Below, in pieces: positions 3,880 to 26,585 of a DNA stretch of 64,000 nt; the stretch's first letter is position 1, and every line of letters starts with the position of its first letter. The notes beneath the pieces are model-generated. The model was not told the DNA's origin. It did no database searches and saw nothing but the letters and a program-made list of their open reading frames with translations. The stretch comes from Clostridia bacterium (GTDB taxonomy: Bacteria; Bacillota; Clostridia; Oscillospirales; Acutalibacteraceae): the NCBI GenBank assembly GCA_024404115.1, contig JAKSQM010000008.1:36027-100026 (forward strand), in the 5' to 3' direction. Made by a program: the position numbers and the translations under genes.

Positions 3880-4620
3880 ATGGAAAAGAAAAGACAGACA
3901 GGAGCGGGCAGGCTCAGACCAATCGAGCTTGAATATCAGCCGATTTTTGATATTCACCTCAACATGGCAATCGACTACGAAATATCAATGAAGATAAACG
4001 ATAAGGTAATGGGCGTTATGCTTCCCCAGTATTTCATCCCCGTTGCAGAGAAGTCAAATCAGATCTGCCAGCTTGGGCTGTGGGCAATTGAAGAGTGCTG
4101 CGAAGCTCTTAAACGCTGCGAAGCAAGAGAGGCTGACATAAACTCATTTATCGTCTGGGTTTCAGTTAAACACATTGCCAAAAAGAATTTTGTACCGTCT
4201 GTTATGAAAATTCTTAACAAATATTCCGTAAAGCCTGACAGATTCTGTTTCAATATTAACCAGAGCATTCTTGAGGCAAGCAAAGATCAGATCCTTGCAA
4301 ACATCAAAGAGCTTCGTGAGCTTGGTTTTAAAGTATCTATTGACGACCTTGGTCTTGAATATACATCATTAAGCAACTTGAGCCAGTATGATGTTGATTA
4401 CATCGGAATCCACGCTTCCCTTATAGAAGATATAATGGAAAGCGAAAGAACCCAGAATATGGTTCAGGGTCTTATAGATTTCTGCAAAAAGATTGAGGTT
4501 GAAACAAGAGTTGACGGAATTGACACTGCCGAAAAGGCTGAGCTTCTTAAAAAGCTTGGTGTTGACCAGCTTAAAGGTCCGTTCTACGGCAAGCCGATTT
4601 CAGAAAAAGCTATAGTTTAA
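3880..4620 (+). CDS. Degenerate EAL-domain protein, first gene of the fibre operon
   Basis: A 246-residue stand-alone EAL-family TIM barrel with no GGDEF domain, receiver or membrane segment. Landmarks are recognisable but eroded: the EAL motif reads YEI, the NxS strand is VSVKH, the ELTES position is NINQS, DDFG is kept as DDLG, the KID Lys is lost (IGIHAS), EGVET reads RVDGIDT, and the final QGYLFGKP reads LKGPFYGKP. Several metal-binding and catalytic positions are therefore missing, so c-di-GMP hydrolysis is unlikely. A c-di-GMP-sensing or protein-adaptor role is inferred. The start is the ATG at 3880, six bases after AGAGAGGG; the TTG at 3874 has no room for a ribosome site. Being the promoter-proximal gene suggests a regulatory or assembly role for the downstream surface proteins. 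Confidence 0.8.
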   Translation: MEKKRQTGAGRLRPIELEYQPIFDIHLNMAIDYEISMKINDKVMGVMLPQYFIPVAEKSNQICQLGLWAIEECCEALKRCEAREADINSFIVWVSVKHIAKKNFVPSVMKILNKYSVKPDRFCFNINQSILEASKDQILANIKELRELGFKVSIDDLGLEYTSLSNLSQYDVDYIGIHASLIEDIMESERTQNMVQGLIDFCKKIEVETRVDGIDTAEKAELLKKLGVDQLKGPFYGKPISEKAIV

Positions 4621-4638
4621 TGAAGGGGGCGTGTCCCA

Positions 4639-5430
4639 TTGGCAAAGAAAGATAAAAACACTAAAGGCGCAGTTGATCAGGCAGAGGAGCTTGACCCCAA
4701 CGAAGCAGCCGACCAGATGGAGAAATATGCTGTAAAGACTAACTCCAAAAAGGTCAACAAGCGTGAGGCACTTATCAGAATCCTCACCATTATACTTATT
4801 ATATTGTTACTTTTCCTTTTCGGATTATTTGCCTGTTCAACATACATCAAGAGCGGTAACTTCACAGTTACAGCAAGCTCTGAGGCGTTTAACGCAGGCA
4901 TCTCACTGAGTGAAACAAAAGATTTCAAAAATCCTCAGCGAATCCTTGAAGGCAGTAAATATGAGGAGATGAGAGAAGGCACATATCCTCTCATTCCCGA
5001 AGATGTCGACCAGTATGAAGGCTCCAAAAACTTCAACGAAAACGGCATGTACTACTTTACTTATTCTTTCTATGTAAAGAACACAGGCTCAGACGACGCA
5101 GGCTACGCTGCAAAGCTTAATATTGACAGCGTAACAGAGGGTGCAGACGAAGCACTCCGCGTTATGGTTATCAAGGACGGCGAAAGAATGACCTACGGTA
5201 AGCCGAGACTTGGTACAAACAATGTGCTTGAAATTTACGCAGATAAGAATTTTGTAAGCAATCGTCTTGTTGCAACAGTTACAGACGATGATTTCAAAGC
5301 AGGTGAAATGCAGAAAATCACTGTTGTCATCTGGTTTGAAGGCGAAGATCCCGAGTGTGTTAACGATATTCTTAAAGGGGAGGTCAAGCTCTCAATGGAT
5401 TTAAATGTCATTGAGCCACTTGATAAATAA
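4639..5430 (+). CDS. Membrane-anchored pilin-like (TasA/camelysin-like) protein
   Basis: About 263 residues: a charged cytoplasmic N-terminus (1-48), one membrane segment (about 49-67, ILTIILIILLLFLFGLFA), then an extracellular beta-rich domain. Its end (VVIWFEGEDPECVND) matches the C-termini of the two pilin-like subunits downstream (IWVEGNDIDC and IWAEGNDIDC). It therefore shares their fold but keeps an uncleaved anchor instead of the SipW-type A-W-F site. The start is TTG at 4639, nine bases after GAAGGGGG; no ATG fits. It lies 18 bases after the EAL gene. A base or anchor for the fibre is the natural inference; a regulator of polymerisation is the alternative. Confidence 0.7.
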   Translation: MAKKDKNTKGAVDQAEELDPNEAADQMEKYAVKTNSKKVNKREALIRILTIILIILLLFLFGLFACSTYIKSGNFTVTASSEAFNAGISLSETKDFKNPQRILEGSKYEEMREGTYPLIPEDVDQYEGSKNFNENGMYYFTYSFYVKNTGSDDAGYAAKLNIDSVTEGADEALRVMVIKDGERMTYGKPRLGTNNVLEIYADKNFVSNRLVATVTDDDFKAGEMQKITVVIWFEGEDPECVNDILKGEVKLSMDLNVIEPLDK

Positions 5431-5550
5431 GCGATGAGGAATCCGGGAGCGGTAAAAGGAGCAACCTTTATCAAACCCTGATATAAGTACTTTTCTTTAA
5501 GTCCGAATCCAATATTTTAACGCACAGGATATAAATTAAACGATGCGTTT

Positions 5551-5571
5551 GGCGACGCGTTAACGGTCGCC
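5551..5571 (+). repeat. Inverted repeat in the leader of the first pilin-like gene
   Basis: GGCGAC (5551-5556) pairs with GTCGCC (5566-5571) around a loop that itself contains the palindrome CGTTAACG (5558-5565). It sits about 30 bases before the start of the first SipW-type subunit gene. The 173-base gap also has AAAGG/CCTTT complementarity near 5455-5470. No T-run follows, so it is not a terminator; an mRNA-stability or regulator site is possible. Confidence 0.45.
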
Positions 5572-5603
5572 AAGGCATACGAAATCTTTATGGAGGTAAA
5601 GAT

Positions 5604-6542
5604 ATGAAAAAGACAATCAAAAAACGCGCTTTTGTATCAGCGATCGCTATGCTTATCGTTTCAGCTATCGTTCTTACAAGTTCAACGTTTGCATGGTTCT
5701 CAATGAGCAAAGAAGCTAAAGTTGAGCAGATGGATCTTACCGTTTCTTCACCCGAAGGTATTCAGATTTCTGCCAATGCTTCAGCTTGGACTGCAAGTCT
5801 TACAAACGACGACTTCTTCAATGAGAGCTCAACAAGCCGTTACAAGGCATATGACGGCAACGTAAACCTTATGCCCCTTAACCTTATCCCTGTTTCAAGT
5901 GCTTTTAAAATGTTTAACTCAACAACAGGTGCAGCTAACTTCTATAAGGCTGTTCTTAACGATAAGGGTAATGCAACAGTTACAGCTGTAAGCCAGACTG
6001 CAGGCAATGATGATAACGCAGGTCTTGTAGCATTTGACATCTTCTTCAAGGTTGCACAGAATACAAAAGTTTATTTCGGCACATCTGAATTCAAAGATGA
6101 GAGCCAGTCAGATATCCTTACAGCACTTAGAGTTGCTTTCCAGCCTTTAGGTCAGACTACATCAACTGAGGCTGCAACAGCTATTGCTCTTAAGTCAACA
6201 TCTGCAACAAACACAACTGTTTATGAGCCAGATGCAGTTAACCGTTCAGCAGATGCTATTGCATCAGGTAACAGCACTGGTGTTGTAACAACAAAGTATA
6301 TTAATAGTACTGGTGCTGCTGGTACTGTTAACAGCAACTTTGTTCTTACAAATGCTAACAACGAAGCTCTTACATGTAATGCAATTACAAGCCAGGCTTC
6401 AGCAACTGATAAGTCATTTGAAATTAAAGCAGGTGTAACAAAGATGAGAGTTTACATCTGGGTTGAAGGTAATGATATTGACTGCCGTAACTCAGTTGCA
6501 GGCGCAGCTCTTTCAGTTGCTCTTAAGTTCACAATTGACTAA
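5604..6542 (+). CDS. SipW-dependent TasA-like fibre subunit A
   Basis: 312 residues with a SipW-type signal peptide: basic KKTIKKR, a hydrophobic core of about 20 residues, then SSTFAWFS. That A-W-F site is typical of substrates of non-canonical (SipW) signal peptidases and of TasA/camelysin relatives. The mature part is Ser/Thr/Ala-rich with few charges and predicted beta structure. It ends with VYIWVEGNDIDC followed by a hydrophobic strand. Two cysteines remain in the mature protein (ALTC and NDIDC), so a disulfide is possible. GGAGG precedes the ATG by seven bases. It is a tandem paralogue of the next gene and probably a major structural subunit, secreted by Sec and cleaved by a SipW-like enzyme of this operon. 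Confidence 0.82.
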   Translation: MKKTIKKRAFVSAIAMLIVSAIVLTSSTFAWFSMSKEAKVEQMDLTVSSPEGIQISANASAWTASLTNDDFFNESSTSRYKAYDGNVNLMPLNLIPVSSAFKMFNSTTGAANFYKAVLNDKGNATVTAVSQTAGNDDNAGLVAFDIFFKVAQNTKVYFGTSEFKDESQSDILTALRVAFQPLGQTTSTEAATAIALKSTSATNTTVYEPDAVNRSADAIASGNSTGVVTTKYINSTGAAGTVNSNFVLTNANNEALTCNAITSQASATDKSFEIKAGVTKMRVYIWVEGNDIDCRNSVAGAALSVALKFTID

Positions 6543-6885
6543 TCCTTTTGGATTATAAATTACTTTTTAAAACAAAATCTATTTTTAAAGCTTAATTTTA
6601 TGTGTGTAGTTGCTCTGCACACATAAAGACCTCGTCGCTTAAGGGGCGACGAAATCGGATTCGTTGCCCCAGTTTTTCCCCTGATTGACTGTAAGGGTGA
6701 TTTAAGAGCATTCGGCGAGTGCTTTTAATTGACCTTTACAGTTAAACGCAAAGGTCAGCCCGAAAGGGTTCATAGGTTAAAAAAACCTGAACTTTCGCTT
6801 GAGTTTGAGATGCAAATCTTAAACATAAGTATAAATTGCGCTAAACCGCAGTAAACAAGCAAATTTTATCAATGGAGATGAAGAC
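6543..6885 (+). promoter_or_regulatory. Structured 343-base leader between the two fibre-subunit genes
   Basis: This non-coding gap can form a chain of hairpins: ATGTGTG/CACACAT (6600-6624), TCGTCGC/GCGACGA (6632-6652), AGCATTC/GAGTGCT near 6705-6723, GACCTTT/AAAGGTC near 6730-6755, CCC-GAAA-GGG just after it, and AGGTT/AACCT near 6773-6790. No stem is followed by a clear T-run. The layout does not match the c-di-GMP-I (GEMM) core that I know. It may set the ratio of the two subunits by RNA processing or stability. An internal promoter (TTGAGA, 19 bases, TATAAA near 6801-6835) is conceivable but weak. Confidence 0.5.
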
Positions 6886-7848
6886 ATGAACAAAAAGAAT
6901 AAGAAACGTGCCTTTATAACGTCTATTATTATGCTTCTTATCTCTGCAATCGTTCTTACAAGCTCAACATTTGCTTGGTTTGTAATGGGCGATAAGGCCG
7001 CAATCAACGAAATGGATATTAAACTCTATTCATCAGAGGGCATCCAGATTTCTGCAAATGCGACCGATCCAAGCTGGAGACAGATGCTTACACTGGATAA
7101 CCTCTTCGATACAGAAGAAGCAGACGATCCGGTTCTTGACGCTTATGCAGGCAACAGAAACATGCTCCCCGAGTACATCATTCCCGCATCAAGCAGCTTC
7201 AATTCATTTGGCGATTATGGTTACCCCAACTTCTACAGAGCAAGCGTAGAAGGTGACGGTTCAACATCAGTTGCAAAGGTTGTTGAAGCTTATGACGCAG
7301 CTGACGAAGCAGGCATCGTTGCTTTTGATATTTTCATCAAGACCAGCGTAGCTCAGACAATTGATTTCAGCACAACAGAAATCAAAGAAATTGTTGGCGA
7401 AAGCGGCGAATCACTTGATCCTCTTACTGCTATCAGATATGCTTTCGTTCCTATGGGCAACACAGCTATCGGCACAGCAGCAGCTACATGCCAGCAGCTT
7501 CAGAACGCAAGTGCTTCAAAGGTAACAATCGCTGAAGCAGATTCACTTGCACGTTCTAAGGATTCAGCAGCAGCTGGTAACGCAACAGGTCATCAGACAA
7601 CTGCTCCTCTTAACGGCGCATCAGCTACAACAGCTGATATGAAGAATGTAATTCTCAGCACAGATACTGCTGCTCCTCAGGGCAAGGTATACTGGAGTGA
7701 TGATGCAACAAAGACATTTGATCTTGATGCAGGCATCACAAAGATCAGAGTTTACATCTGGGCAGAAGGCAACGACATTGACTGCCGTGACAGTATCGCA
7801 AGTTCAGAGCTGTCTGTAGCATTCAAATTTGCAGTTGCAGGTGCATAA
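6886..7848 (+). CDS. SipW-dependent TasA-like fibre subunit B
   Basis: 320 residues, clearly paralogous to the preceding gene: the same KKRAF start, the same SSTFAWF site, a shared EGIQISANA segment near residue 50 and the same IWAEGNDIDC close. The mature domain is more acidic (Asp/Glu-rich around residues 75-90) than subunit A. Cysteines are again found at a TC pair and at NDIDC. The start has GGAG eight bases upstream. It is probably a second structural component, either co-assembled or an alternative subunit. A hairpin immediately downstream separates it from the signal peptidase gene. Confidence 0.82.
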   Translation: MNKKNKKRAFITSIIMLLISAIVLTSSTFAWFVMGDKAAINEMDIKLYSSEGIQISANATDPSWRQMLTLDNLFDTEEADDPVLDAYAGNRNMLPEYIIPASSSFNSFGDYGYPNFYRASVEGDGSTSVAKVVEAYDAADEAGIVAFDIFIKTSVAQTIDFSTTEIKEIVGESGESLDPLTAIRYAFVPMGNTAIGTAAATCQQLQNASASKVTIAEADSLARSKDSAAAGNATGHQTTAPLNGASATTADMKNVILSTDTAAPQGKVYWSDDATKTFDLDAGITKIRVYIWAEGNDIDCRDSIASSELSVAFKFAVAGA

Positions 7849-7911: not shown

Positions 7912-8004
7912 ATTTTCAAATTGCATGAGCGATTTAAAAGTATAAATGTACTTTTAAATGACTTATACAGTCAAAGTTTTACAAAGCAAAAGGTGGATAT
8001 TACT

Positions 8005-8751
8005 ATGGAACAGCAAAATGGAAAAAGCATACTCGGTGTTATATCGGATGTATTGCTGATAATTCTTATTATCGTTGCAATCGCCATTACCGTTATGACA
8101 TTTACATCAAAGAGTTCTGAAACAGGAGTCGGAAACATTCTCGGTTTTACACCGTTTTCAGTTCAGACTTCATCAATGGAGCCCACAATTGACCAGGGCG
8201 ACCTTATCATTTCAAAAGAAGTTAAGCAGGAAGAGGCAGTTGATGGCAAGAGTCTTAAGGTTGGCGATGTTATCACATTCTCAACTGTTATGTCAGATAA
8301 CGCAGGCAACACAATCAGAGGTTACAACACCCATAGAATTGTTGATGTAACTCTTAATGATGACGGCACAGTTTTCTCATATGCTACAAAGGGTGATGCA
8401 ATAGGTACAGAAGATAGCACACCTGTTACACCTTATGAGATTATTGCAAAGCAGATCGGTGCAAGTGCGGATATTGTAAACGGTCAGCCTGTTAACATCA
8501 AAAAAGGCGTTACAATTATGGGCTTAGGTAAAGCTCTTGATTTCCTCCAGACACAGCTTGGCTTTATGGTTTGCGTAATCATACCTCTCGCACTGTTCTT
8601 CATCTGGCAGGTTTATAAGCTTATCGCAATGTTTATGTCAGCAAAATCAGAGAATATTTCTGATGACATCAAGCGTAAGGCTATCGAAGAATACCTTGCT
8701 CAGCAGGAAGCTGCAAAGAAAGCAGCTGCTGACGCAGAAGAAAATAAATAA
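8005..8751 (+). CDS. SipW-like signal peptidase I (first of four)
   Basis: 248 residues in the ER/archaeal/SipW class of signal peptidases. There is an N-terminal membrane anchor (about 14-34), the nucleophile Ser in TSSMEPT, and the general-base position occupied by His (NTHRIV) rather than Lys, then a GDA motif (KGDAIG). A second membrane segment follows near residues 190-212 and a charged Ala/Lys/Glu tail at the end. The ATG at 8005 has AGGTGG eight bases upstream; the longer frame from TTG 7921 lacks a site. It is predicted to cleave the A-W-F signal peptides encoded in this operon, on the outer face of the membrane. Confidence 0.88.
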   Translation: MEQQNGKSILGVISDVLLIILIIVAIAITVMTFTSKSSETGVGNILGFTPFSVQTSSMEPTIDQGDLIISKEVKQEEAVDGKSLKVGDVITFSTVMSDNAGNTIRGYNTHRIVDVTLNDDGTVFSYATKGDAIGTEDSTPVTPYEIIAKQIGASADIVNGQPVNIKKGVTIMGLGKALDFLQTQLGFMVCVIIPLALFFIWQVYKLIAMFMSAKSENISDDIKRKAIEEYLAQQEAAKKAAADAEENK

Positions 8752-8794: not shown

Positions 8795-10345
8795 ATGACA
8801 GTTACAGCATTCATTTCAGAGTTTCTAAATCAGTTCTTTGTTCAGGGCTTATTCGGTATCTTCAAGGGTATCGGAATGGGTATCGTAAATATGTTCAATG
8901 TTCCAAGATACATTGAAATCTTTAAGGCAAACTCAGGCAACTTCACAGCAACAGACTGGATTATTGCAATCCTTACAGTTATTGCAACAATCGCAATTCT
9001 TGCAGTTATCGTTGTTCTTGTTGCAATCCTTGTTAAGAAATATTTAAGAGTTCGCAAAACTCTTGTTGACCAGGAAGAGCTTCTTAATGAAGTTGGCAAC
9101 CTTAACAGAGAAATCATCAAGCTTTCTTCAGAAAAAGAAAGAATCCTTGCTATGAAGGTTTCACAGCTTGGTCTTAAGCCCGGCGAAAGCCCATTCGTTG
9201 AGCAGGAAGAAAAGGATGAGGACGAAGAGGAAAAGTCAGACGATGTTGATATGACTGCTGATGACTACAGCCGTTTCTATAAGTGCACACAGGTTGACCT
9301 TGAAATTGCTGATTATGTTCCCCCCGAATTTGATAACGAAATCACACTTCCCGAAATCGTTGACAGATTCCGTAACTTCGCTTGCTCACAGCTTGGCCTT
9401 TTCTATGAGCCAAAGCTTATCAGACTTTTCCTTTCAGCATTTGCAACAACAAGACTTATCATCCTTCAGGGTATTTCAGGTACTGGTAAAACTTCACTTG
9501 CTTATGCTTGGGGTAAATTCCTTCGCAACCCTGCAATCATTGCTTCAGTTCAGCCCTCATGGAGAGACCGTACAGAAATCTTCGGCTACTTCAACGAGTT
9601 CACAAAGCGCTTCAACGAAACAGAAGTTCTTAAAAAGATGTATGAAGCAACATATAAAGAAGAAATTTATATTACCGTTCTCGACGAAATGAACATCGCT
9701 CGTGTTGAGTATTACTTCGCAGAGCTTCTTTCAATCCTCGAGATGCCTACAAGAGAAGAGTGGGTTGTATCCCTTGTTCCCAGCGTATGGCCCACAGACC
9801 CCAAACATCTCTTTGATGGTAAGCTCAGACTTCCTGAGAATATGTGGTACATCGGCACAATCAACAACGACGACTCTACATTCGCCGTATCAGATAAGGT
9901 TTATGACCGTGCTATCCCCATTGACATTAACTCAAAAGGTAAAGCATTTGACGCTCCCAAAACAGAATGGCTTCCTCTCAGCTATAAGCATCTTGAAGCT
10001 ATGTTCAAAGAGTGTCAGGAAAAATATAAGGTTTCAGATGAAAACCTCCGCAAGCTTGAAGAGCTTGATGACTATGTTATCGAACACTTCCGTCTTGCTT
10101 TCGGTAACCGTATTGTTAAGCAGCTTAAAGAGTTCGTTCCTGCTTATGTTGGTTGCGGCGGAACAGAAATTGACGGTATCGACTTCGTTCTTTGCCACAA
10201 GATTCTCCGTAAATTTGAAAGCTTGAACCTTTCATTCATCCGTGATGAAATCGACGGACTTATTACTTACCTTAATAAGCATTTCGGTAAGTCAAATATG
10301 ATGGAATCTAAAGAATATCTCTTAAGACTTCAGAAACTTATGTAA
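8795..10345 (+). CDS. Membrane-tethered McrB-like AAA+ ATPase
   Basis: 516 residues. A hydrophobic or amphipathic stretch (about 10-34) and a strong membrane helix (about 53-79) are followed by KKYLRVRK, placing the rest in the cytoplasm. A coiled-coil/acidic linker (95-160) leads to an AAA+ domain of the McrB type: Walker A GISGTGKTS (226-234), the hallmark PSWRDRTEIFGYFN, Walker B LDEMNIARVEYYF (Asp297-Glu298), and sensor-1 IGTINNDDSTF followed by VYDRA. The ATPase thus looks active. McrB normally partners McrC in restriction. Here there is no DNA-binding domain, the N-terminus is in the membrane, and the neighbours are secretion genes. A role in powering or gating surface assembly is inferred. 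It is 48 bases upstream of, and presumably partners, the DUF2357-like gene. Confidence 0.85.
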   Translation: MTVTAFISEFLNQFFVQGLFGIFKGIGMGIVNMFNVPRYIEIFKANSGNFTATDWIIAILTVIATIAILAVIVVLVAILVKKYLRVRKTLVDQEELLNEVGNLNREIIKLSSEKERILAMKVSQLGLKPGESPFVEQEEKDEDEEEKSDDVDMTADDYSRFYKCTQVDLEIADYVPPEFDNEITLPEIVDRFRNFACSQLGLFYEPKLIRLFLSAFATTRLIILQGISGTGKTSLAYAWGKFLRNPAIIASVQPSWRDRTEIFGYFNEFTKRFNETEVLKKMYEATYKEEIYITVLDEMNIARVEYYFAELLSILEMPTREEWVVSLVPSVWPTDPKHLFDGKLRLPENMWYIGTINNDDSTFAVSDKVYDRAIPIDINSKGKAFDAPKTEWLPLSYKHLEAMFKECQEKYKVSDENLRKLEELDDYVIEHFRLAFGNRIVKQLKEFVPAYVGCGGTEIDGIDFVLCHKILRKFESLNLSFIRDEIDGLITYLNKHFGKSNMMESKEYLLRLQKLM

Positions 10346-12872: not shown

Positions 12873-12921
12873 TGCAGCAGCAAGGCTGAATCAATATAAA
12901 TTGACCATCGTGGAGGTTGTT

Positions 12922-18900: not shown

Positions 18901-20991
18901 GGTGTTGTTACAGCATCAATGACAGATAAAGCTCGAATCAGCGGTGTAAGCATTGTTTCATCTGATGTTAAGGCTGATGAATATGCAGCAGCAATTGCAG
19001 GCACAGTTCAGGCAAGCGGCGCAAAGATTTCTTCAAGCAGCGTTACAGGTTCAACAATCTCTGCTAAAGATGCAGCAGGTATTGCGGCTCTTGTTTCAGG
19101 CAAGGCAGATATAACATCTTCAACAGTTGACGCTACAGAAATTAAGGGTACAGACGCAGCTGGCGGAGTCGTTGCAGTTGCTTCAGCAGATGCTCTTAAT
19201 ATCAATGGCTGTGATGTAACAGCAGATGTAAGTGCAGATAATGCAGGCGCAATTGTTGGTGTAACAGATAAGGCAGTGAACGTAGCTTCCTGCGTTGCAA
19301 ATGGCACAGTTAACGGCAAAACAACAGAGGGCGGAATAATCGGTCTTGCAGACGGTATCGTTAAGATAACAGGCAGTAAGGCATTCGCAAAGCTTTCTGG
19401 CGAAGCCAAGAATGTTGCCGCACTCGTTGCAAAGTTTGTAAATCGTCCTGCTGATGATGAAAACTTCGCAAAAGATTTCTCAAATAACACAATTGATGGC
19501 GAGTATGATGAATTCGAGCCCGCAATAATGAAATATCAGAACTTTGACCCTGCTCAGAAAGAAGAAGAGAAAGACACTCTTGAGGGCAGCGGCACAAAAG
19601 AAGATCCTTACATTATCGCTTCTGCGGCAGACCTTGCTAAGATTCCCGATTCATCAACAGCTTACTACTCATTGTTATCAGATATAACAATCACAGAAAA
19701 AGATTACGGCATCTCAATTGATAAGAACGGCGAAACTGTTTATGGCGTATTCAGCGAGGGTTATAAACCTATCAAGAATTTCGCAGGCGTGTTCAACGGT
19801 AACGGTCATGTAATCAAAGGTCTTTACATTGACTCTGTTTCTGATTATGTTGGCTTGTTTGCAAATGTAACAGGCAATGGCGCTGTAAGAAATCTCCATG
19901 TTGAGCTTCTTGACGGAAAAGATTTCTCAGGCATCAAGGGTGCTGATTATGTTGGCGGTATCGCAGGCTACTGTGATTCAACTAACGGCATTGAAAACTG
20001 CTCAGTTGTTGGTGCTTCTGTAAGCGGCGACCATGCAGTGGGCGGTGTAGTCGGCGGACTTGCATCATCACAGCTTATTAATTCCTTTGCAATGTGCAAG
20101 GTTAACGCTCAGAATAAGGCTGGCGGTCTTGCAGGCGTTACAAGCGGCAAAGCTCTTATTAAGAATTGCTTCACAACCTGCGATGTTAACGCAGCTGGCG
20201 GTGTAATTGTTGGCACAAACAACGGCGCACTTACACTTACAGATGTAATGGCAAACGGCAGCTCACACGGCACAGATGCTCTTGCAGTTGCAGTTAACAA
20301 CGGCACAATCAAGGCTGAAAAAGTTCTTGTTGCAGGCTCAAATGACGATAATAAGACAGCTGTTTTTAACGCTGACGAAGCTGAGTATGCTTATGCAGAT
20401 AAAACTGCTATCGGAATTGCAGACAGCAACATGACAGGACTTACAACATCTGAGCTCACCGCTTCAAAGCCTGAAGGACTTGAAGGCTGGGCACAGAGTC
20501 AGGGTAAATATCCCGTTCCTGTAATGGCAGATGCTTATTCAAATGCCAAAGCTCTTGAAGCTGCAACAGCTTCTACAGAGGAAGCAATCGAAGAAACAAT
20601 CGGCAATCTTAAAGTCAACTACAAGCTTGTGAATAATTCAGGCGATAAGGCTATGGATTCCGCGCTTGTTGGTGTTCTCATTAAGTCAAAGGCTAATGGC
20701 ACAACAATCACTTCAGACTTCTTCACAAAGAGCGGCGATAAGGCAAAATCACTTAACAAGCTTCTTGTTACAACTGGCGGCTTCTACATTGATTCAAGCC
20801 TTCCCGCAGGTTACAAGTTCGTTGTTACTGCTAAGGATTCAAACGGCAAAGCAATTGATGTTTCAGATGCAGGCAGCCTCGGCGCATATGTTCAGTGTGG
20901 CAACGCAAGTGAAATTAGTCTTACTATCTCAATTGTTAAAGTTGACATCCCATGGGGACTTACCTCCCTGTGGGAGAGTCTTAAAAGATAA
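12922..20991 (+). CDS. Giant secreted GLUG-repeat protein (~2,690 residues)
   Basis: The ATG at 12922 follows TGGAGG by five bases. A signal peptide (VLVLIVSMAVLLSSTG, cut near VFA-QS) is followed by a Ser/Thr-rich stretch. At least six modules then each open with a G-[ST]-x-x-x-P-[YI]-x-I motif (near residues 86, 550, 903, 1459, 1898 and 2219) and continue into GLUG-type repeats (NGHTISGLKI, GLFG, ITNVNV-like strands), which predict a long right-handed beta-helix or beta-solenoid. Ig-like linkers separate some modules. I see no LPxTG, S-layer-homology, dockerin or C-terminal membrane anchor; the chain ends in a small separate domain. It is probably an adhesin, a fibre tip or a matrix component exported by Sec. 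Its signal lacks the A-W-F site, so an ordinary signal peptidase should process it. Confidence 0.85.
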   Translation: MMKRRIIERVLVLIVSMAVLLSSTGVYSVFAQSYREIDSSVSTTIPSSTSTAASSDENKQTPTNPAIEKTTEPNIVAEGGSVTKDVIEGTGTSADPYKISSVDDLFKMQSIINNTRLKDKFFILTDDIDLSSVSYAQLRANTVLPGTIISVDKAKSDAVPNAVKFYFNGRNHKISGLNISNSGSDAVALFGYISAKSVVKNIVFENIKVNVSSKNAVATGALVLCNNGEFRSCTVNNVSVNVSSSANGNISSKRIAKALSINESTGVIAVNNGKVIDLAVKDASVNVQSAKNNIGLIGINNGSVSNVKLSGATIKAATGSDAIGAVAGRNTGKIENATVESLKANVNGKAAFGGIAGVNSGSIVSCVASGSAYGSNCTGGIVGKAVSDNNAKTSNVKNCASFVRVDAALEIGAVVAKGETRYSDNIWSSENSGRACAYANGETAGDMVRDLRYVVVKAGSTKVINKAEFGGKFGNAAYVLDSTKAVSCDGSGISFSETENAVAITAQSADKVGKITFAARIAVDAGYNNSSVVSKNFTVAVLTVPENSKGDGLTEATPIEIGSGAGLKMIAAAPYANFILTKNVTLPESWDSSLSFTGSLNGNGYKLKASKPLFSSVYGKVSNLNVVLCGKINTAMFGKAVNAEFNKVKLLKGTAKDGNSFIGLSANKNCTGAFLNKVIGSSKLNECFTNVPVSVASGSVKGVAGFIGMLDSSKAVITSCGAVTSMTSANGEKLSSCAAFIANTSDNSNGKIKDCYATLYSDVTDYVFVVSGDKQVNIENSYFGSSNKKAVAAPKSFTNVNANKWMFKSGEQGFVTGSGSSVAITLPSNIVDASKVSAKDFSVMYDASVLKVNAKAITVKNGAVYVPVEAVNNKSTIKNSALVIVHKTTGLRAEIGISNGLEKDGNGNYLINSGADFGFINSNFNKFKDKNFILKKDIDMSDVDFDVVGGATKAFSGTFNGKNHTISGLKVSSKAKAGLFGALDGATVKDITFKNAVVKSGTSYAGVLASQITNKSTVSGITFKNCKVEGKENYAGILAGEVKDSKVSDIEIIDSKVSALNDAGILAGYAKSAEIKDVKAEKSTAAGDNNIGLVGLVENSAVKSVSVDDAKLTAKRNVGGVAGSAEKAKISKADVSDSEIKAAADALGAAPVAGGICGDFSGKISNAVVKSSKITADGNAAVAGGIVAAGEKSEVVSSAANEGVKVNASVAGGIIGEANGETTIKNSKSCAAVTGSDSASKVIEGTGGIIGRVTADDFGDITIEKTNSAGTVKAADYAGGLIGSVLSQKATEKSIKDCVSAAKVVSGASDENTTSGHVIGATPELNGKDIKKAVSGVVYSSYASDVPAYGDVKADGTYSDLDKAVKASLKDVITDKDEVKVKVANSEAEKLGFVFDSAEGWQSESEKRIDVVDSTENQVTLKAEKTGIVGIVGTYTLDGDDSIDLEVGFTAESKIDVVLKGEGTKESPYIISNASELEGISAYADKNAYFTLTQDIAVKAEEFDFGGEFYNEGKGFTPIGTSEVPFNGVFMGNGHTISGIKISDVENGALFGYTDGATITDINVKDMAVSAEKVAAVVVANAVNTEIKNVNVSDSSAVAESEQGNAAAVVAYANGSNISDVTVKSTEITSCTKENGYNVACAGAVSARAIDTTISNADVDESVKVTSDGSAAGLVGYGDNAVINSSKTFADVTGCFASAVVANVKGVLKADGIVAGGKVSGKEFTAGITAKAYDVVKVANAVISAEINGEDKIATLVAYADEDVFTDSEDCEVDFSNITYSSYQNDAKPFASAKINAYQNALYLDKLVDVNSLTAKDGQFVFVGKDEVKVADQVKSDYDISSLNLVDVYSEPENLVKYNSENGTVTAIGTAIEDAKLVMKFDNGLEAAVALIAIKDAEGKGTTASPYIINSEDTLKLLNLYPNAVFSMKSDVSLSEEWTPVENFTGVLDGNGFEISGLKVKADNAGLFAAMSGSATVRNVVFSNAEVEGKTSAGVVTASMTDKARISGVSIVSSDVKADEYAAAIAGTVQASGAKISSSSVTGSTISAKDAAGIAALVSGKADITSSTVDATEIKGTDAAGGVVAVASADALNINGCDVTADVSADNAGAIVGVTDKAVNVASCVANGTVNGKTTEGGIIGLADGIVKITGSKAFAKLSGEAKNVAALVAKFVNRPADDENFAKDFSNNTIDGEYDEFEPAIMKYQNFDPAQKEEEKDTLEGSGTKEDPYIIASAADLAKIPDSSTAYYSLLSDITITEKDYGISIDKNGETVYGVFSEGYKPIKNFAGVFNGNGHVIKGLYIDSVSDYVGLFANVTGNGAVRNLHVELLDGKDFSGIKGADYVGGIAGYCDSTNGIENCSVVGASVSGDHAVGGVVGGLASSQLINSFAMCKVNAQNKAGGLAGVTSGKALIKNCFTTCDVNAAGGVIVGTNNGALTLTDVMANGSSHGTDALAVAVNNGTIKAEKVLVAGSNDDNKTAVFNADEAEYAYADKTAIGIADSNMTGLTTSELTASKPEGLEGWAQSQGKYPVPVMADAYSNAKALEAATASTEEAIEETIGNLKVNYKLVNNSGDKAMDSALVGVLIKSKANGTTITSDFFTKSGDKAKSLNKLLVTTGGFYIDSSLPAGYKFVVTAKDSNGKAIDVSDAGSLGAYVQCGNASEISLTISIVKVDIPWGLTSLWESLKR

Positions 20992-21018: not shown

Positions 21019-21603
21019 ATGAAAAAAGATTTCAGAACAATCAAAAACATAATACTGCTCATAGCTTCGGCCCTTACTTTGGTGGCTGTTACTTTTGCAT
21101 GGTATTCATTGAGCAAAAAGGTTGGTAACTTCGTTATCAATTCAAACGTTTCAGGCTCAACGCTGGCAGTTAGTTATTATGAATCTGCTGATAACGGTAA
21201 TACTTATAAAATGCTTGATGACGATATGTCAATGTCCAATATGGTAGAGGGCAAAACCGCTTACTATAGAATGGATGTTAAAACATTCAATGACAAAATG
21301 ATTAAAATCATTATGAGCTTTGATGGACTTTCCAGTAGCAACACTGCGGCAAACTTTGTTTATTTTGATTACAAGGTTGTCTGCAAAGATACTGGTGAAG
21401 TACTTAACAGCAGCACAGGCTTGAAAATGTCTGATTATATATCAGACAACGTTTTCTCAGTTGATGTATCACAGTATCAGAAAAATAAACATTACACATT
21501 TGAAGTATATTATAATGTTTATGTTGTTTCAAACGGAGCAACAGTTCCGTCTGGCACTGCAAGTCTTGGCGAAGTTAAACTTTTAGGTCAGCAAGTGAAC
21601 TAA
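21019..21603 (+). CDS. SipW-dependent pilin-like minor subunit C
   Basis: 194 residues with a SipW-type signal (hydrophobic IILLIASALTLVAV, then TFAWYS). The mature beta-rich domain of about 165 residues contains Tyr/Asn/Ser-rich strands and one Cys (VVCKD). It lacks the IWxEGxDxxC C-terminus of subunits A and B. A GAGGG site lies eight bases before the ATG. It starts 27 bases after the giant gene and is followed by a signal peptidase after one base, so the enzyme and substrate are coupled. A minor or adaptor subunit is inferred. Confidence 0.75.
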   Translation: MKKDFRTIKNIILLIASALTLVAVTFAWYSLSKKVGNFVINSNVSGSTLAVSYYESADNGNTYKMLDDDMSMSNMVEGKTAYYRMDVKTFNDKMIKIIMSFDGLSSSNTAANFVYFDYKVVCKDTGEVLNSSTGLKMSDYISDNVFSVDVSQYQKNKHYTFEVYYNVYVVSNGATVPSGTASLGEVKLLGQQVN

Positions 21604-21604
21604 T

Positions 21605-22255
21605 ATGAGAAAGAAAAAGGAAAAAAAGGTAAACCCAAAATTAGAAAAAGCAAAGACAGTCTTTAAAAGAGTAATGTCTGTTATAACTGCTTTGTCATTT
21701 CTTTTAGGTTTTGCTATATTTGTTTCAGTTTTAAGAGCCAATAAGGGCGAGGTTCCGTCTGTTCTCGGCTATAGTGTTATGCGTGTAAGAACAGGAAGTA
21801 TGGAGCCGACTCTTGGCACTGGCTGTATTATAATTGCAAAAAAGACTGCTCCAGAGCAGCTTAAAGTTGGCGACATCATCAGCTTTTATTCCACCGATCC
21901 TGACCCGCAGATTAACGGACAGGTTGAAACCCATCGAATAGTTGAGAAACATTCACTGATTACAGGTGAAAAAGAGTTTATCACAAAGGGTGATGCCAAC
22001 ACTGCAGATGATGCTGCACCAGTTTTGCAGATGAATATAATCGGCAGGGTTATATTTAATCTCGGTGTGGCTTCGGGTTCAGTTTTGCAGATTTTGCAGA
22101 ACCCGAAAGTTATATTTTTCCTGATTATTTTACCGCTGATTTTTATAACTTTTTCAGAGGCAGTAAATCTTGTTAACCTTATTGTTAACAGAGATGAATC
22201 GGAGGAGCAACTGGCTGATGAAACAGAAAATGTCAAAGATAAAGATGCTGATTAG
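21605..22255 (+). CDS. SipW-like signal peptidase I (second of four)
   Basis: 216 residues: N-terminal anchor (about 21-42), catalytic Ser in RTGSMEPT, His in ETHRIVE, the TKGDANTADD motif, and a C-terminal membrane segment (about 158-185). The Ser/His arrangement places it in the SipW/archaeal class. It starts one base after the subunit C stop, and its 3' end overlaps the next signal peptidase gene by 38 bases. It presumably processes one or more A-W-F substrates next to it. Confidence 0.87.
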   Translation: MRKKKEKKVNPKLEKAKTVFKRVMSVITALSFLLGFAIFVSVLRANKGEVPSVLGYSVMRVRTGSMEPTLGTGCIIIAKKTAPEQLKVGDIISFYSTDPDPQINGQVETHRIVEKHSLITGEKEFITKGDANTADDAAPVLQMNIIGRVIFNLGVASGSVLQILQNPKVIFFLIILPLIFITFSEAVNLVNLIVNRDESEEQLADETENVKDKDAD

Positions 22256-22724
22256 TTCAGTTGCCATATGCGCACTTGTCTTTTTACTGATGGTGATTTA
22301 CATACCCAAAATTATGGGATATAAATCATTTTATATTGAAACAGGCAGCATGAGCCCCACAATTCCGCAGGGCAGCATGGTGCTTGAAAAAATGGTTGAT
22401 TTTGAAGATATTACTGAAGGTGATGTTCTCACTTTCAAAAATACCGAAGGAACAGAATATTTTACTCATCGTGTTGTAGGGATTGACACAGCAAATCAGA
22501 TGTTTACAACAAAAGGTGATGCCAACGAAGAGAATGACCCTTCTCTTACAAGCTATTATTTTTTTGTTGGCAGGGTTGATTTTGCAGTGCCTTTTGTAGG
22601 ATACATTTTAAAATTCCTTTCATCGTCGGTGGGCAAAATTGTTTTAGCTTGTGTATATATCGCTTGGATAGCGATTGAAATAGAAATTTTCGTGATGAAG
22701 CGAAAGGCGCCTCAGGAGGATTAG
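22218..22724 (+). CDS. SipW-like signal peptidase I (third of four)
   Basis: 168 residues: anchor (about 9-28), Ser in TGSMSPTI, His in FTHRVVG, the KGDANEENDP motif, and a second membrane helix near the C-terminus. The ATG at 22218 follows GGAGGAG by ten bases and lies inside the previous signal peptidase gene in another frame, so the two enzymes are translationally linked. It shares GDAN with the preceding gene but is clearly divergent, suggesting different substrate sets or a paired complex. Confidence 0.86.
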   Translation: MKQKMSKIKMLISSVAICALVFLLMVIYIPKIMGYKSFYIETGSMSPTIPQGSMVLEKMVDFEDITEGDVLTFKNTEGTEYFTHRVVGIDTANQMFTTKGDANEENDPSLTSYYFFVGRVDFAVPFVGYILKFLSSSVGKIVLACVYIAWIAIEIEIFVMKRKAPQED

Positions 22725-22725
22725 T

Positions 22726-23391
22726 ATGAAAAAACGAATTGCAGCTTTAATAGCTTCTCTTGCCGTTGTCGCAGGTCTTATAACAAGTCAAGGCTCTGGC
22801 GCATGGTTTGTTACAGCGGTTAAAAGGGCGCAGAATATCAACATTGCAGTTATCAATTATGATAGCGAAGCAGAAATTCTTGGAACAATGGAAGCAGATT
22901 ACTACGGTAAACCCTGCATTTATCCTGGTCAGAATCTTGTTATCCTTAACGGTAAGGATGCAACTCTCACTATGAATAATAATTCATCAATTGATACACA
23001 GGTAAGAGTAAGAATCGAATACACCAGCTACGCAAACGGTTCAGCAAAAACTGTGAATTATTCAGGCAGTGAAAGCGACGACCTTCAGGTTGAGTTTGTG
23101 AATCCATCACAGTGGCTTCCTTATGATAATGGAACAGATGGCACCTGCTACTATTATGTAGGTCCCAACTACGGTTCATCTACTCTTAAAAATGTTGATG
23201 ATGTTTATTCAATTTCACCTGCAATCCCCAATATTGATATAATCAAGAGCGTTTGCTATAATAAAGATGTAAACACAGAGGAATATTCAGGCAACGAAGT
23301 TACAGTTAATATTATTTTTGAAGCCAAGCAGGCAGATTATGTTGGCTGGAGCTCGCTTGCAGAGTATCAGGTCAACTCAGGCGTTAATTAA
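22726..23391 (+). CDS. SipW-dependent pilin-like minor subunit D
   Basis: 221 residues. A short signal peptide (AALIASLAVVAGLITS) ends in a GSGAWFVT site, the SipW-type variant. The mature domain has a beta-sandwich look with strands such as TQVRVRIEY and EVTVNIIFEA, two cysteines near the middle (CIYPG and TCYYY) and another in SVCYN. GGAGG for its start lies in the end of the upstream signal peptidase gene. It is flanked by signal peptidases on both sides with one- and two-base gaps. Confidence 0.74.
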   Translation: MKKRIAALIASLAVVAGLITSQGSGAWFVTAVKRAQNINIAVINYDSEAEILGTMEADYYGKPCIYPGQNLVILNGKDATLTMNNNSSIDTQVRVRIEYTSYANGSAKTVNYSGSESDDLQVEFVNPSQWLPYDNGTDGTCYYYVGPNYGSSTLKNVDDVYSISPAIPNIDIIKSVCYNKDVNTEEYSGNEVTVNIIFEAKQADYVGWSSLAEYQVNSGVN

Positions 23392-23393
23392 GT

Positions 23394-23915
23394 ATGAAAA
23401 TAAAACCTATAAATGTATTGTTTAATATTCTTGCAATCATAACAGTTGTGGCTGTTGGATTTGTTTCATTTAACTTTTTCAGCGGAGCGAAAGGCTACGC
23501 CGTTGTAACAGACAGTATGGTGCCTGTTTTCAGCAGGGGCGACGCAGTTTTTGTTAAAGAAACAGATTTTGAAACGCTCAGCGAGGGAGATATTGTAACT
23601 GTCAGCTTTCAGGATGGAAGCGGTTATTTCACCCACCGAATTGTTTCAATTGACTACGAAGCAGGAATATTTAGAACAAAAGGCGACGCAAGCGACAGTG
23701 AAGACCCGCAGTCCTCAATGGTAGAGCAGATTATGGGCAAGGTTTGGTATAGCGTTCCCCTTTTAGGTTATATTTCCATATTTATTTCATCATTAAATCT
23801 GATAAAAATCAGCGTGATTCTTGCAATAGTTGTGATTATTCTTATTACGCTGACAACACTTATACAAAAATCTAAAAAATCTGGATCGAGAGGTGGCAGC
23901 AATGAGCAGATTTAA
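23394..23915 (+). CDS. SipW-like signal peptidase I (fourth of four)
   Basis: 173 residues: anchor (about 8-27), Ser in VTDSMVPV, His in FTHRIVS, the TKGDASDSEDP motif, and a C-terminal membrane helix (about 125-155) with a Lys/Ser/Arg tail. The Pro after Met-Val replaces the usual MEPT. It starts two bases after subunit D and overlaps subunit E by 14 bases. No strong ribosome site is visible, so coupling to the upstream gene is likely. Confidence 0.85.
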   Translation: MKIKPINVLFNILAIITVVAVGFVSFNFFSGAKGYAVVTDSMVPVFSRGDAVFVKETDFETLSEGDIVTVSFQDGSGYFTHRIVSIDYEAGIFRTKGDASDSEDPQSSMVEQIMGKVWYSVPLLGYISIFISSLNLIKISVILAIVVIILITLTTLIQKSKKSGSRGGSNEQI

Positions 23916-24549
23916 AAAAATATCTGCAATAATAATGATATTTGCTCTTGTTATGTGCACAGGATATTTTTCAATGATGGCACCGACTACAGCATGGTTT
24001 TATCAGGCACAGTCGATAAATGGAACAAACAACAAATTCGTATTCGCCGATTTTGATATTGACGGTGATTACTCAATTGAAAAGGTTCTTGTTTTTGACG
24101 GTGCTACAGCATATGAAGACAAAAATGAAACTATGTTTGATTCAGTTGTCAAGGTTATTGATGTTGATGTTGAAAATGACGGCGGACTTCCCGCAAGAAT
24201 TTATGCAACTGTTAAGAATGAATCAAGTGCAAAGGGTCTGAAGTATTTTTATTATACCGACGATATGCTCGTTAACGGTAGTGTTAAAGAAACAATTTAT
24301 TCTGCACTTAAAAACAATGTTAACGATAAGGCACTTAACAACTATAATGTTGGTGAGGATGGCAACGGCGGACACTTTGTAAAAATTAACCCTGGTGAGA
24401 AAAAGACTGTTAAGGTTGCACTTTGGGTTGAGTATGACGAGTGCGAATCAGAGCTTGCATTTGCAGATTCACCATGGGAATCCATTAACTACAATATAAA
24501 TGTTACAATGACTGCAACACAGGATGTTGACGGTGCAATGACAAGATAA
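23902..24549 (+). CDS. SipW-dependent pilin-like minor subunit E
   Basis: 215 residues. The signal peptide (hydrophobic AIIMIFALVMCTGYFSMM) leads into PTTAWFYQ, a SipW-type site. The mature domain is acidic and beta-rich, with VKVALWVEYDECESEL near the end: an altered form of the IWxEGxDxxC motif of subunits A and B that retains the Cys. The ATG at 23902 has AGAGGTGG five bases upstream; a GTG at 23893 is the alternative. It overlaps the fourth signal peptidase gene. Confidence 0.75.
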   Translation: MSRFKKISAIIMIFALVMCTGYFSMMAPTTAWFYQAQSINGTNNKFVFADFDIDGDYSIEKVLVFDGATAYEDKNETMFDSVVKVIDVDVENDGGLPARIYATVKNESSAKGLKYFYYTDDMLVNGSVKETIYSALKNNVNDKALNNYNVGEDGNGGHFVKINPGEKKTVKVALWVEYDECESELAFADSPWESINYNINVTMTATQDVDGAMTR

Positions 24550-24571
24550 TTTAAGGGCAGGGTTGATTGAT

Positions 24572-25174
24572 ATGAAAAACAGCAGAAAAAGAATAGCTGC
24601 AATTATCGTGAGTGTCGTTGCGGTCATAGCAATCGTTTCGGGCTCTTTAGCTTGGTACACAAGCACCAATTCATTGCAGCAGAGTGGTAAGCTTTATGGA
24701 TTTAAGAGCAGTGCCCGTGTTTATTTTAAGCAGAGCGATGGAAGCGATTTAACCGCCACACCTGATGAAGACGGTTTATATAAGCTCAGCCTTAATTCAA
24801 ATGCAAAGAATTATGTGGGTAACCTTAGAATAAATGTTGTTCAGAAAGGCTATTCAAAAAATTACACAAGAGTAAAGCTGAATGTTGAATGGGTTATGCC
24901 CGACGGAACAGTGGCGCAGAATATTACTCTCCCCTACAAATTTGCCAGCAAATGGTTTGATAACCGCAGTGAAGATTATTGCGTTTATTATACTGAAAAT
25001 AGCGGACTTAGCAACGATTATGATAAATCTATCATCACAGGTTTTGATGAAGAGAGTTTTATCAAAAACAGCCTTGTTCAGAATGCTACACCGAGAATCT
25101 CTGTTTCAGTTGAATCTGTTCAGGTCAACCGTTATCAGCAGTTCTGGGGTATAGATAAGCTTCCTTGGGAATAA
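24572..25174 (+). CDS. SipW-dependent pilin-like minor subunit F
   Basis: About 200 residues. The signal peptide (AAIIVSVVAVIAIVSG) ends in SLAWYTS, the SipW-type site. The mature part is beta-rich with many Tyr/Asn/Lys and ends IDKLPWE. One Cys is present (DYCVYY). AGGG lies nine bases before the ATG at 24572; a TTG at 24563 with AAGGG five bases upstream is an alternative start. It is the last of the six A-W-[FY] substrates in the operon. Confidence 0.73.
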   Translation: MKNSRKRIAAIIVSVVAVIAIVSGSLAWYTSTNSLQQSGKLYGFKSSARVYFKQSDGSDLTATPDEDGLYKLSLNSNAKNYVGNLRINVVQKGYSKNYTRVKLNVEWVMPDGTVAQNITLPYKFASKWFDNRSEDYCVYYTENSGLSNDYDKSIITGFDEESFIKNSLVQNATPRISVSVESVQVNRYQQFWGIDKLPWE

Positions 25175-25195
25175 TTCATCAAAAGGATGATACAT

Positions 25196-26077
25196 ATGGC
25201 AAACAAAAAGAATAAAAAAGCCAAAAAGCCTGCGGTGGGAAAACCTGCCGCAGGCAGTAATAATAAAGGAGCAAAAAAAGCTCCGCCAAAGGGCAAAAAG
25301 CCTCAAAATAAATCAAAAAAGCCTCAGCAGAAGCCTGCGAAGAATCAGACAAAGCCTGTTGCAAAGAATAGTGAAAAGGCAAGGTCTGCACCCGAAATGA
25401 AAGAGAAAAATAAAAAGCAAGCTTCCACCAAAAAACAAGCTCCTAAAAAGCCTGCTTTTGATTTTGATAAGCTGAGCCAGAAGCTTTCTGCACTTTCAAA
25501 AAAAGTTAAAGCTTTTGCAGATAAATGCAAGAAAAACTATGACATGAAAAAGGTGTTTATTGCGTTAGGCTTTATCGCCGCAGTTATTGCAGTTACAGCA
25601 ATTGTGATTGTTTTGATTGCAAACAATAATTATTCAGTGCCCGATTATGTTAAGAATGCCGATTATAAGGGCAGAGTTGAATCTGAAGCCATTGCTTTTG
25701 ATATGGATATTTCAGAAAATCAGCAGAAAGCTCTTTCAAAGGCAACAAAATCTAAGGGCGACAAGAGAAAGTTTGACTTTTTTGTAAACGATACAATTGT
25801 CATGAATGAATATGACGACCCTGCACTTATTGAATTTGGCAGTGCAGATACTAACGATTGCGTGCTTGTTTTTTATATTATTGATGAAAACGGGCAGGAG
25901 CTTTATCGTTCACTTGGCATTGAGCCTGGCAGGCAGGTTCGCTCAATTTCATTCTTTGACGAAATTCCTTACGGTACGCAGAATGTTACTCTGGCTGTTT
26001 TAGGCTATGATGCCAAAACTTTCAAAATGGTTGGTATGCAGACTGCGCAGATTAAGCTTGAAATCGGTGTTGATTGA
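25196..26077 (+). CDS. Membrane-anchored accessory protein with Lys/Pro/Ala-rich cytoplasmic tail
   Basis: 293 residues. Residues 1-115 are very rich in Lys, Pro, Ala, Asn and Gln with no hydrophobic stretch. One membrane helix (about 121-145) follows, then an extracellular beta domain with the pattern LYRSLGIEPGRQV and IPYGTQNV. The basic tail could bind nucleic acid, the membrane or the acidic cytoplasmic parts of the operon's ATPase. The external domain resembles that of the next gene, so the two are probably paralogues. The ATG at 25196 has AAGGA eight bases upstream; an ATG at 25187 overlaps that site. Function unknown; an anchoring or assembly role is inferred from position. Confidence 0.65.
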   Translation: MANKKNKKAKKPAVGKPAAGSNNKGAKKAPPKGKKPQNKSKKPQQKPAKNQTKPVAKNSEKARSAPEMKEKNKKQASTKKQAPKKPAFDFDKLSQKLSALSKKVKAFADKCKKNYDMKKVFIALGFIAAVIAVTAIVIVLIANNNYSVPDYVKNADYKGRVESEAIAFDMDISENQQKALSKATKSKGDKRKFDFFVNDTIVMNEYDDPALIEFGSADTNDCVLVFYIIDENGQELYRSLGIEPGRQVRSISFFDEIPYGTQNVTLAVLGYDAKTFKMVGMQTAQIKLEIGVD

Positions 26078-26078
26078 T

Positions 26079-26585
26079 TTGAAAAATACAGGTCAAAAAA
26101 AGAAAATCGCTTTTGTTTCTGCCATAGCGTCGCTTTTGATTGTGGCGGTGGTGTTGGTTCAGCTGTTGACACCGGGATTTATGTGGCTTTTCACTCCAAA
26201 AGCCAAGGCGCAGGATGGCGTGATAGAATCCGTTAAGGATATTGAACATATAACCGATGTCCCGAAAGGCGAAATCAGATACCTTGTGAACAACAGCGTA
26301 ACGGCAAAGGGCAAAAATTTAAAGGGCGATTTTATGTTTGAAAATCCTGCCGCCTGCGAATATTCCCTTCAGTTCACCGTTTATGAAATTGTTGGCGATG
26401 ACGGCGAGGAGAATGTTTTATATACTTCGCCTGTGATAGAGCCTGGGCAGTTTGTTGTTAACGATAAGCTCAGCAAAAAAGTTCCCACTGGTTATTACAA
26501 CTGCCTTTATATTGCAAGGGCATATAAAAATGGCGAATACGCTGGGGAACGCAGTGGCGAATTGGCCTTAACTGTTTTAAACTAA
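26079..26585 (+). CDS. Membrane-anchored accessory protein, paralogue of the preceding one
   Basis: About 168 residues if the TTG at 26079 is used, one base after the previous stop; GTG at 26067 is another option, and no strong ribosome site is visible, so coupling is likely. A short basic N-terminus and one membrane helix (about 11-31) precede an extracellular domain with LYTSPVIEPGQFV and VPTGYYNC, matching the neighbour's LYRS...IEPG and IPYG pattern. It closes the operon. No terminator with a T-run was seen after it; a 50-codon frame on the other strand overlaps its stop. Confidence 0.62.
   Translation: MKNTGQKKKIAFVSAIASLLIVAVVLVQLLTPGFMWLFTPKAKAQDGVIESVKDIEHITDVPKGEIRYLVNNSVTAKGKNLKGDFMFENPAACEYSLQFTVYEIVGDDGEENVLYTSPVIEPGQFVVNDKLSKKVPTGYYNCLYIARAYKNGEYAGERSGELALTVLN

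Follow-up and report, generated by a model that had tools for sequence, protein, structure and literature searches.

In a 64,000-nucleotide window of the Clostridia bacterium contig JAKSQM010000008.1 (positions 36,027 to 100,026), 17 open reading frames (ORFs) on one strand (3874-26585), with small gaps or overlaps between them, bring secretion genes together with an McrB-like AAA+ nucleoside triphosphatase (NTPase) and a DUF2357 protein. The set comprises an EAL-family protein, six putative SipW-type substrates, an anchored relative of two of them (ANCH), four SipW-type signal peptidases, McrB, the DUF2357 protein, a giant repeat protein and two membrane proteins, tm1 and tm2. From sequence comparison we judge it somewhat better than an even chance that the locus is a CoCoPALM-type system for the dedicated export and assembly of surface filaments, with NTP hydrolysis by the McrB pair driving or gating the process. 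That reading starts from the composition and order of the locus, the co-occurrence of its genes, the intact NTPase and peptidase motifs and the homology of ANCH to substrates 1 and 2, all of which are observed directly. A preliminary description had placed the run at 3880..26585 with strand, order, gap sizes and coordinates right and had counted 15 genes, to which the ORFs at 25187 and 26007 are to be added. The contig is number 43 of 44 in a genome that is 84% complete. The features are as follows.

3719..3748, plus strand: promoter-like site TTGACA-18-TAAAGT with TG ahead of the second hexamer, 5' of the gene run (consensus scan alone)
3874..4620, plus strand: degenerate EAL protein (Pfam EAL 7.4e-48; catalytic columns; PDB EAL enzymes)
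4639..5430, plus strand: ANCH, predicted single-transmembrane (TM) protein with its N-terminus inside, uncut relative of substrates 1 and 2 (TM 48-66; hhalign)
5604..6542, plus strand: substrate 1, signal ...SSTFAWF
6643..6670, plus strand: terminator-like hairpin separating substrate 1 from substrate 2, perhaps an attenuator (-20.3 kcal/mol)
6886..7848, plus strand: substrate 2, signal ...SSTFAWF, paralogue of substrate 1
7921..8751, plus strand: SipA, SipW-type signal peptidase (NF046067 9.7e-20, below the model cut-off; TIGR02228 7.4e-17)
8795..10345, plus strand: McrB-like AAA+ NTPase with TM 62-80 (Walker A GISGTGKT, LDEMN, NNDD)
10394..12829, plus strand: DUF2357 (McrC-type) protein, ~380 residues followed by a 431-residue tail of mostly K/E/A/R (nuclease domain not found)
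12901..20991, plus strand: secreted repeat protein, 2,696 residues (Pfam Peptidase_M26_N 6.1e-10; an ATG near 12925 may be a better start)
21019..21603, plus strand: substrate 3, signal ...AVTFAWY
21605..22255, plus strand: SipB, SipW-type signal peptidase (TIGR02228 1.7e-25; NF046067 8.6e-23, below the model cut-off)
22170..22724, plus strand: SipC, SipW-type signal peptidase (Pfam Peptidase_S26 1.3e-8; likely start ATG 22230)
22726..23391, plus strand: substrate 4, signal ...GSGAWF
23394..23915, plus strand: SipD, SipW-type signal peptidase (Pfam Peptidase_S26 3.7e-5)
23893..24549, plus strand: substrate 5, signal ...PTTAWF
24563..25174, plus strand: substrate 6, signal ...SGSLAWY
25187..26077, plus strand: tm1, basic N-terminus, one TM segment and an external domain (paralogue of tm2; conserved)
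26007..26585, plus strand: tm2, one TM segment and an external domain (in 10/10 near relatives searched; likely start GTG 26067)

The coupling of the AAA/DUF2357 pair to the SipW genes, as the preliminary description had it, is borne out in relatives. Among 197 genomes of the window's taxonomic order, McrB is matched at E<=1e-15 in 22, including the window's own. The succession SipA-McrB-DUF2357 is present in 16 of the 20 regions examined (the window's own genome and G028, which has short contigs, being left out), and of these 16 loci, 15 carry SipB downstream, 13 ANCH, 12 a substrate-family gene 5' of McrB and nine an EAL match. A scan of the genome_contigs collection gave at least 539 McrB relatives among 597 candidate stretches, and our counts use the best 80 of these, which derive nearly all from metagenome-assembled genomes (Clostridia, Ruminococcaceae, Christensenellaceae and Bacilli by title, with ruminant guts a frequent source), include at least three contigs of order genomes already counted (L073, L077 and L080) and retain short contigs. 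SipW-type peptidases and DUF2357 proteins are each encoded in 78 of the 80, ANCH in 57, a substrate in 60 and an EAL protein in 30, and in 80/80 every family member shares the strand of McrB; the family profiles were built from the window and the order loci, and find close relatives more easily. The two loci without a SipW-type gene lie on contigs that begin 39 and 586 bases ahead of McrB, and the two without DUF2357 on contigs that stop 123 and 1 bases past it. With at least 4 kb available upstream (60 loci), SipA is found in 58, ANCH in 49, a substrate in 48 and an EAL-family gene in 30.

Linkage extends beyond the immediate neighbourhood. At E<=1e-10 the ANCH profile matches 16 of the 197 order genomes, these being 16 of the 18 with a full-length McrB (a match that includes the N-terminal part) and none of the 179 others (Fisher p 1.2e-21); the two full-length-McrB genomes without ANCH, G028 and G047, are assemblies of ~130 and ~90 contigs. 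The distance between ANCH and McrB is <10 kb in 13 of the 16 and 15-19 kb in G003 and G019, and in G073 the two are on different contigs. On the strength of the 78/80 relatives and the co-occurrence with ANCH we group the McrB/DUF2357 pair with the SipW genes; a chance neighbourhood was rejected on the conserved gene order and the genome-wide co-occurrence. The distance matrix of McrB correlates with those of its partners at 0.63-0.92, which 0/1000 permutations reach, and a correlation would also be expected from common descent alone. The 3' half, from the giant protein to tm2, has the same order in 4/4 extended near relatives, except that L149 lacks SipC. Compared with the window, substrate 3 is 22-56% and tm2 28-58% identical in extended or near relatives, so that gene order has outlived much sequence change. 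In a draw of genomes from the phylum, 1/398 was matched at E<=1e-40, the window's own, and the clade is thus rare outside its own order in that draw. What is conserved so tightly in these uncultured gut bacteria is probably a filament or export locus, used for the export and building of surface fibres. Four order genomes (L053-L056) form a SipW-free sister group, with DUF2357 in 3/4; in L053, L054 and L056 two McrB-type genes flank one DUF2357 gene, and large transglutaminase-domain proteins are encoded near McrB in L053 and L055.

McrB is the most conserved part of the locus, with a mean identity of 61-66% compared to 25-36% for its partners. The window protein, described beforehand as a membrane-tethered McrB-like AAA+ ATPase, matches the NCBIfam McrB model PRK11331 (E 8.3e-9, far below the model cut-off), and in PDB the family profile matches, at E<=0.01, E. 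coli McrB only (three sequences). Its GISGTGKT Walker A, LDEMN and NNDD motifs are invariant in 17/17 aligned McrB proteins; NxDD is present in 102 of 103 McrB sequences, the remaining one being a fragment, although an alternative alignment pairs NNDD with the NxxD of E. coli McrB. Positive residues lie C-terminal to TM 62-80, from which the AAA+ domain is predicted to be cytoplasmic, and FtsL-type matches are weak (E 0.017-0.11). The window DUF2357 protein gives no Pfam match at E<=1, and its assignment comes through its family, nine of whose 17 members match PF09823 (best 2.1e-14) and which aligns with two plasmid DUF2357 proteins (hhalign 98.4%; ANCH control 0.1%). Its 431-residue tail consists of 27% K, 24% E, 20% A and 11% R, has opposite charges at i,i+3/i+4 near chance and would by computation measure ~65 nm if one helix; the ‘rod’ of the preliminary description is plausible, and the tail gave no signal of a heptad coiled coil. 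Among relatives the protein ranges from 362 to 994 amino acids, which places the tail outside the conserved core.

The Ser and His motifs of SipW-type peptidases are found in four ORFs (7921, 21605, 22170 and 23394). Scored by alignment columns, both residues are present in 50/50 SipB proteins, and in SipA the Ser is present in 65/75 and the His in 64/75. SipA-like proteins that lack the active-Ser motif occur in nine loci (L101, L107, L110, L112, L119, L120, L125, L127 and L130, in an ORF near 5.4-6.1 kb), mostly titled Bacilli, Bacillales or Erysipelotrichaceae. SipA lies between McrB and DUF2357 in five loci (L082, L089, L090, L093 and L094), the substrate-SipA pair is tandemly duplicated 5' of McrB in L065, L068, L086 and L129, and in L069 (8563-9818) SipA is split over two overlapping ORFs of 195 and 234 amino acids, by a frameshift or an assembly error. 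ER-type peptidases (TIGR02228) are common in the order (94/197 genomes, including all 18 with full-length McrB), so their mere presence says little; in the window's genome, four of the five TIGR02228-type peptidases are inside the locus.

A hydrophobic N-terminal segment followed by AW[FY] marks the six substrate ORFs (5604, 6886, 21019, 22726, 23893 and 24563). We take A-W-[FY] to be the SipW-type cleavage site, from general knowledge and from weak matches to TIGR04087 (2 of 41 substrate-family members, best 1.1e-4) and TIGR04088 (3 members, best 0.0048). In the best-80 loci, AW[FYTLS] occurs near the N-terminus of 131/160 substrate-family proteins versus 35/794 other ORFs, and is lacking in 54/56 ANCH proteins. 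ANCH has seven positive residues before its TM segment (48-66) and one after it, and forms one family with substrates 1 and 2 (hhalign 99.3%; mature parts 98.8%, E 1.2e-16), as expected of the anchored relative claimed earlier. Common to the three is W-x-E-G-x-D-x-x-C near the C-terminus, a signature that holds their single invariant cysteine. Substrates 4 and 6 are weakly related (hhalign 71.7%) and substrates 3 and 5 each stand alone; the mature parts of the six amount to at least four unrelated sequence groups. No TasA homology of the substrates was found in Pfam, PDB or profile comparisons, and a weak comparison with a local TasA-like set (eight ORFs, several apparently in the wrong frame) gave no relation. 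The giant protein had been described as a GLUG protein of ~2,690 residues; its size and repeats stand, and the match is to Pfam Peptidase_M26_N, not to the Glug model. A large protein in relative locus L044 does match Glug (1.6e-5), and giant leucine-rich repeat (LRR) or other repeat proteins are present within relative loci. tm1 and tm2 are paralogous (hhalign 92.6%) and are kept along with the rest of the locus. PDB searches with the DUF2357, ANCH and tm1/tm2 profiles returned weak matches only (2 up to E 1.3; 9 at E 1.5-9.2; 2 at E 0.03-0.04), which we take for chance.

In the EAL protein, whose degeneracy had also been recognised beforehand, five of eight catalytic positions (N, E, K, E and Q) are replaced and E, D and D are kept, which sets it apart from active cyclic di-GMP phosphodiesterases; the catalytic positions are those we assume from general knowledge and PDB alignments. 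GGDEF-EAL proteins are encoded in relative loci L041 and L042, and an HD protein with a weak EAL match in L044. No cyclic di-GMP riboswitch was found at gathering score within the window (Rfam). Control of the locus by cyclic di-GMP is no more than a fair guess. The consensus scan gave 30 promoter-like sites in the window compared to 19.6 in shuffles, and terminator-like hairpins number 10, about the shuffled mean of 8.4. Since the hairpin at 6643-6670 falls between the first two substrates, a single unbroken transcript is not proven; a similar hairpin is present in 2/7 relatives examined, and it could yield extra substrate 1.

In the mechanism that we propose, six pre-subunits would be inserted via Sec and cut at A-W-[FY] by the locus's own SipW-type peptidases, and uncut ANCH would stay in the membrane as base or nucleator, with the giant repeat protein and tm1/tm2 as putative surface partners. 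At the export site McrB would assemble into a ring, held in the membrane through its single TM helix, with the AAA+ domain facing the cytoplasm and the DUF2357 protein as activator. NTP hydrolysis by McrB would power or gate the release of subunits and their assembly, and signals may enter through the degenerate EAL protein. The filaments, the ring, the coupling of hydrolysis to export and the EAL protein as a sensor are what we infer. More tentatively, and with the balance of probability leaning against it, the membrane ring and its DUF2357 activator might drive an ordered, NTP-dependent assembly of multi-subunit SipW-type filaments from ANCH, under a cyclic di-GMP-sensing pseudo-EAL protein, as a filament class alongside type IV and sortase pili. 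CoCoPALM is named but uncharacterised in the open literature, and the locus suggests what the McrB pair serves. Given that no NTPase is mentioned for the SipW-type polymers described so far, an obligatory McrB partner, if true, would be surprising, and would mean that a restriction motor had been reused for cell-surface assembly. Experiments can draw direct predictions from the fixed order and from the joint occurrence of ANCH and McrB.

Several observations weigh against NTP-driven filament assembly. The substrates match no solved structure in PDB at E<=10, and the TasA/camelysin M73 family is matched neither by the window substrates nor elsewhere in the window's genome. The preliminary description would have been contradicted by relatives in which the pair mostly lacks SipW genes; that is not the case in this clade, but pairs without them do exist. 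The L053-L056 regions have no SipW-type, ANCH, substrate or EAL match at E<=10, and their McrB N-terminus is unalignable, yet has a hydrophobic segment; two plasmid relatives (~35% identity) likewise have the McrB/DUF2357 pair without SipW. The DUF2357 tail has a six-residue instead of a heptad period and is absent in 15/78 relatives, and the SipA-like protein of nine loci is without the active-Ser motif, possibly as a pseudo-peptidase beside an active SipB. In addition, BsaA of C. perfringens forms polymers as a recombinant protein with no such NTPase present (PMC7395162), so a motor is unneeded for SipW-type polymers in general.

The variety of the substrates would also fit separate surface adhesins or enzymes, with the McrB pair acting in their release or quality control, and the at least four unrelated mature groups, the missing TasA match and the giant LRR or repeat proteins of relative loci all point that way; we nevertheless regard this as unlikely, as the main substrate is duplicated and has an uncut relative in the membrane, which resembles a subunit and its base, and the sipW-operon proteins covered in two earlier reports polymerise (PMC9674648, PMC7395162). 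Slightly less likely still is that the pair serves only as a regulator or sensor (of NTP level, of cyclic di-GMP through the EAL protein, or of envelope state) outside export and assembly. The membrane anchor, the EAL-family gene in half of the 60 loci with sufficient upstream sequence and the GGDEF-EAL or HD proteins of three relative loci are in keeping with such a role, but the NTPase is the most conserved component and its Walker and NxD motifs are complete.

A defence role at the membrane, as in Type IV restriction or CoCoNuT systems, with the surface genes as bystanders or phage-receptor modifiers, seems to us improbable. McrB and DUF2357 are indeed restriction families, the PADLOC candidate model PDC-M26A matches 17/17 McrB proteins, and the two plasmid relatives, which have NHDE at the NNDD position, adjoin annotated DUF2357 genes, their DUF2357 and AAA neighbours being of defence type. 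Against this, Pfam searches of the 17 ORFs gave no nuclease family at E<=1, and 15/78 DUF2357 proteins are <390 residues long, which leaves little room for one. Mobile relatives are few and partial: none of 72,556 plasmid records covers 80% of McrB, 1/50,697 phage records matches it, partially, and viral contigs hold one partial relative. McrB is moreover co-inherited with secreted partners, and defence as the principal explanation was set low on these grounds.

Elsewhere in the window, a divergent pair of ABC exporters (114-3634) is accompanied by a promoter-like site of perfect consensus on the minus strand (3634-3606), and a T-box leader at 30357-30593 (Rfam 108.7 bits) precedes a gene at 30560 that presumably encodes an asparaginyl-tRNA synthetase.

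Among known systems, CoCoNuTs and classical McrBC share with the locus the tandem of an McrB AAA+ domain and a DUF2357 partner (as outlined in PMC11090510), but have a nuclease in McrC or a neighbour, whereas here none was found in the 17 ORFs and the pair is set amid secretion genes. In Bacillus, the locus of the SipW-TasA-TapA matrix fibres likewise holds a SipW-type peptidase together with its own secreted substrates (PMC9674648, PMC13082335). The window has the ER-type Ser/His peptidases (TIGR02228/NF046067, Ser/His columns), but four of them, with six substrates, an NTPase pair and no detectable TasA/camelysin or TapA homologue. The C. perfringens sipW-bsaABCRSD operon also encodes several secreted proteins with SipW and has a read-through terminator after the main subunit gene bsaA, which the hairpin after substrate 1 recalls; it has a two-component system, not an EAL protein, and is described without an McrB pair (PMC7395162). 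SipW operon products polymerise in both Bacillus and C. perfringens, by donor-strand exchange or spontaneously, with no NTPase mentioned in the accounts of assembly (PMC9674648, PMC7395162).

The closest precedent is CoCoPALM, named in one paragraph of an eLife 2024 article that gives the McrBC/signal-peptidase pairing and defers its study (PMC11090510). The pairing is thus already known and not new, and the statement in the preliminary description that no described system has this composition does not hold. Apart from this article and its preprint, accounts of an SipW or signal peptidase paired with McrBC/DUF2357 were not found in the open literature, outside which most subscription journals lie. 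Neither the cargo nor the anchored relative turned up in the same literature, nor did the EAL gene, the limits of the 17-gene run, its genome-wide linkage or the SipW-free sister group; the CoCoPALM paragraph itself mentions neither substrates nor an anchored relative, and no EAL or giant protein (PMC11090510). The likeness lies in an NxD-type McrB with a transmembrane N-terminal part, a DUF2357 partner and signal-peptidase neighbours. The CoCoPALM McrB is described as having an FtsB-like TM and coiled-coil part, with coiled coils on McrB/McrC usual, not strict (PMC11090510). In our loci the NxD motif, often followed by D or E in CoCoPALM, is NNDD in the window McrB, the McrC homologue carries DUF2357 (PF09823 in 9/17 and the profile alignment to the plasmid proteins), and signal peptidases accompany the pair in 78/80 wider and 16/20 order loci.

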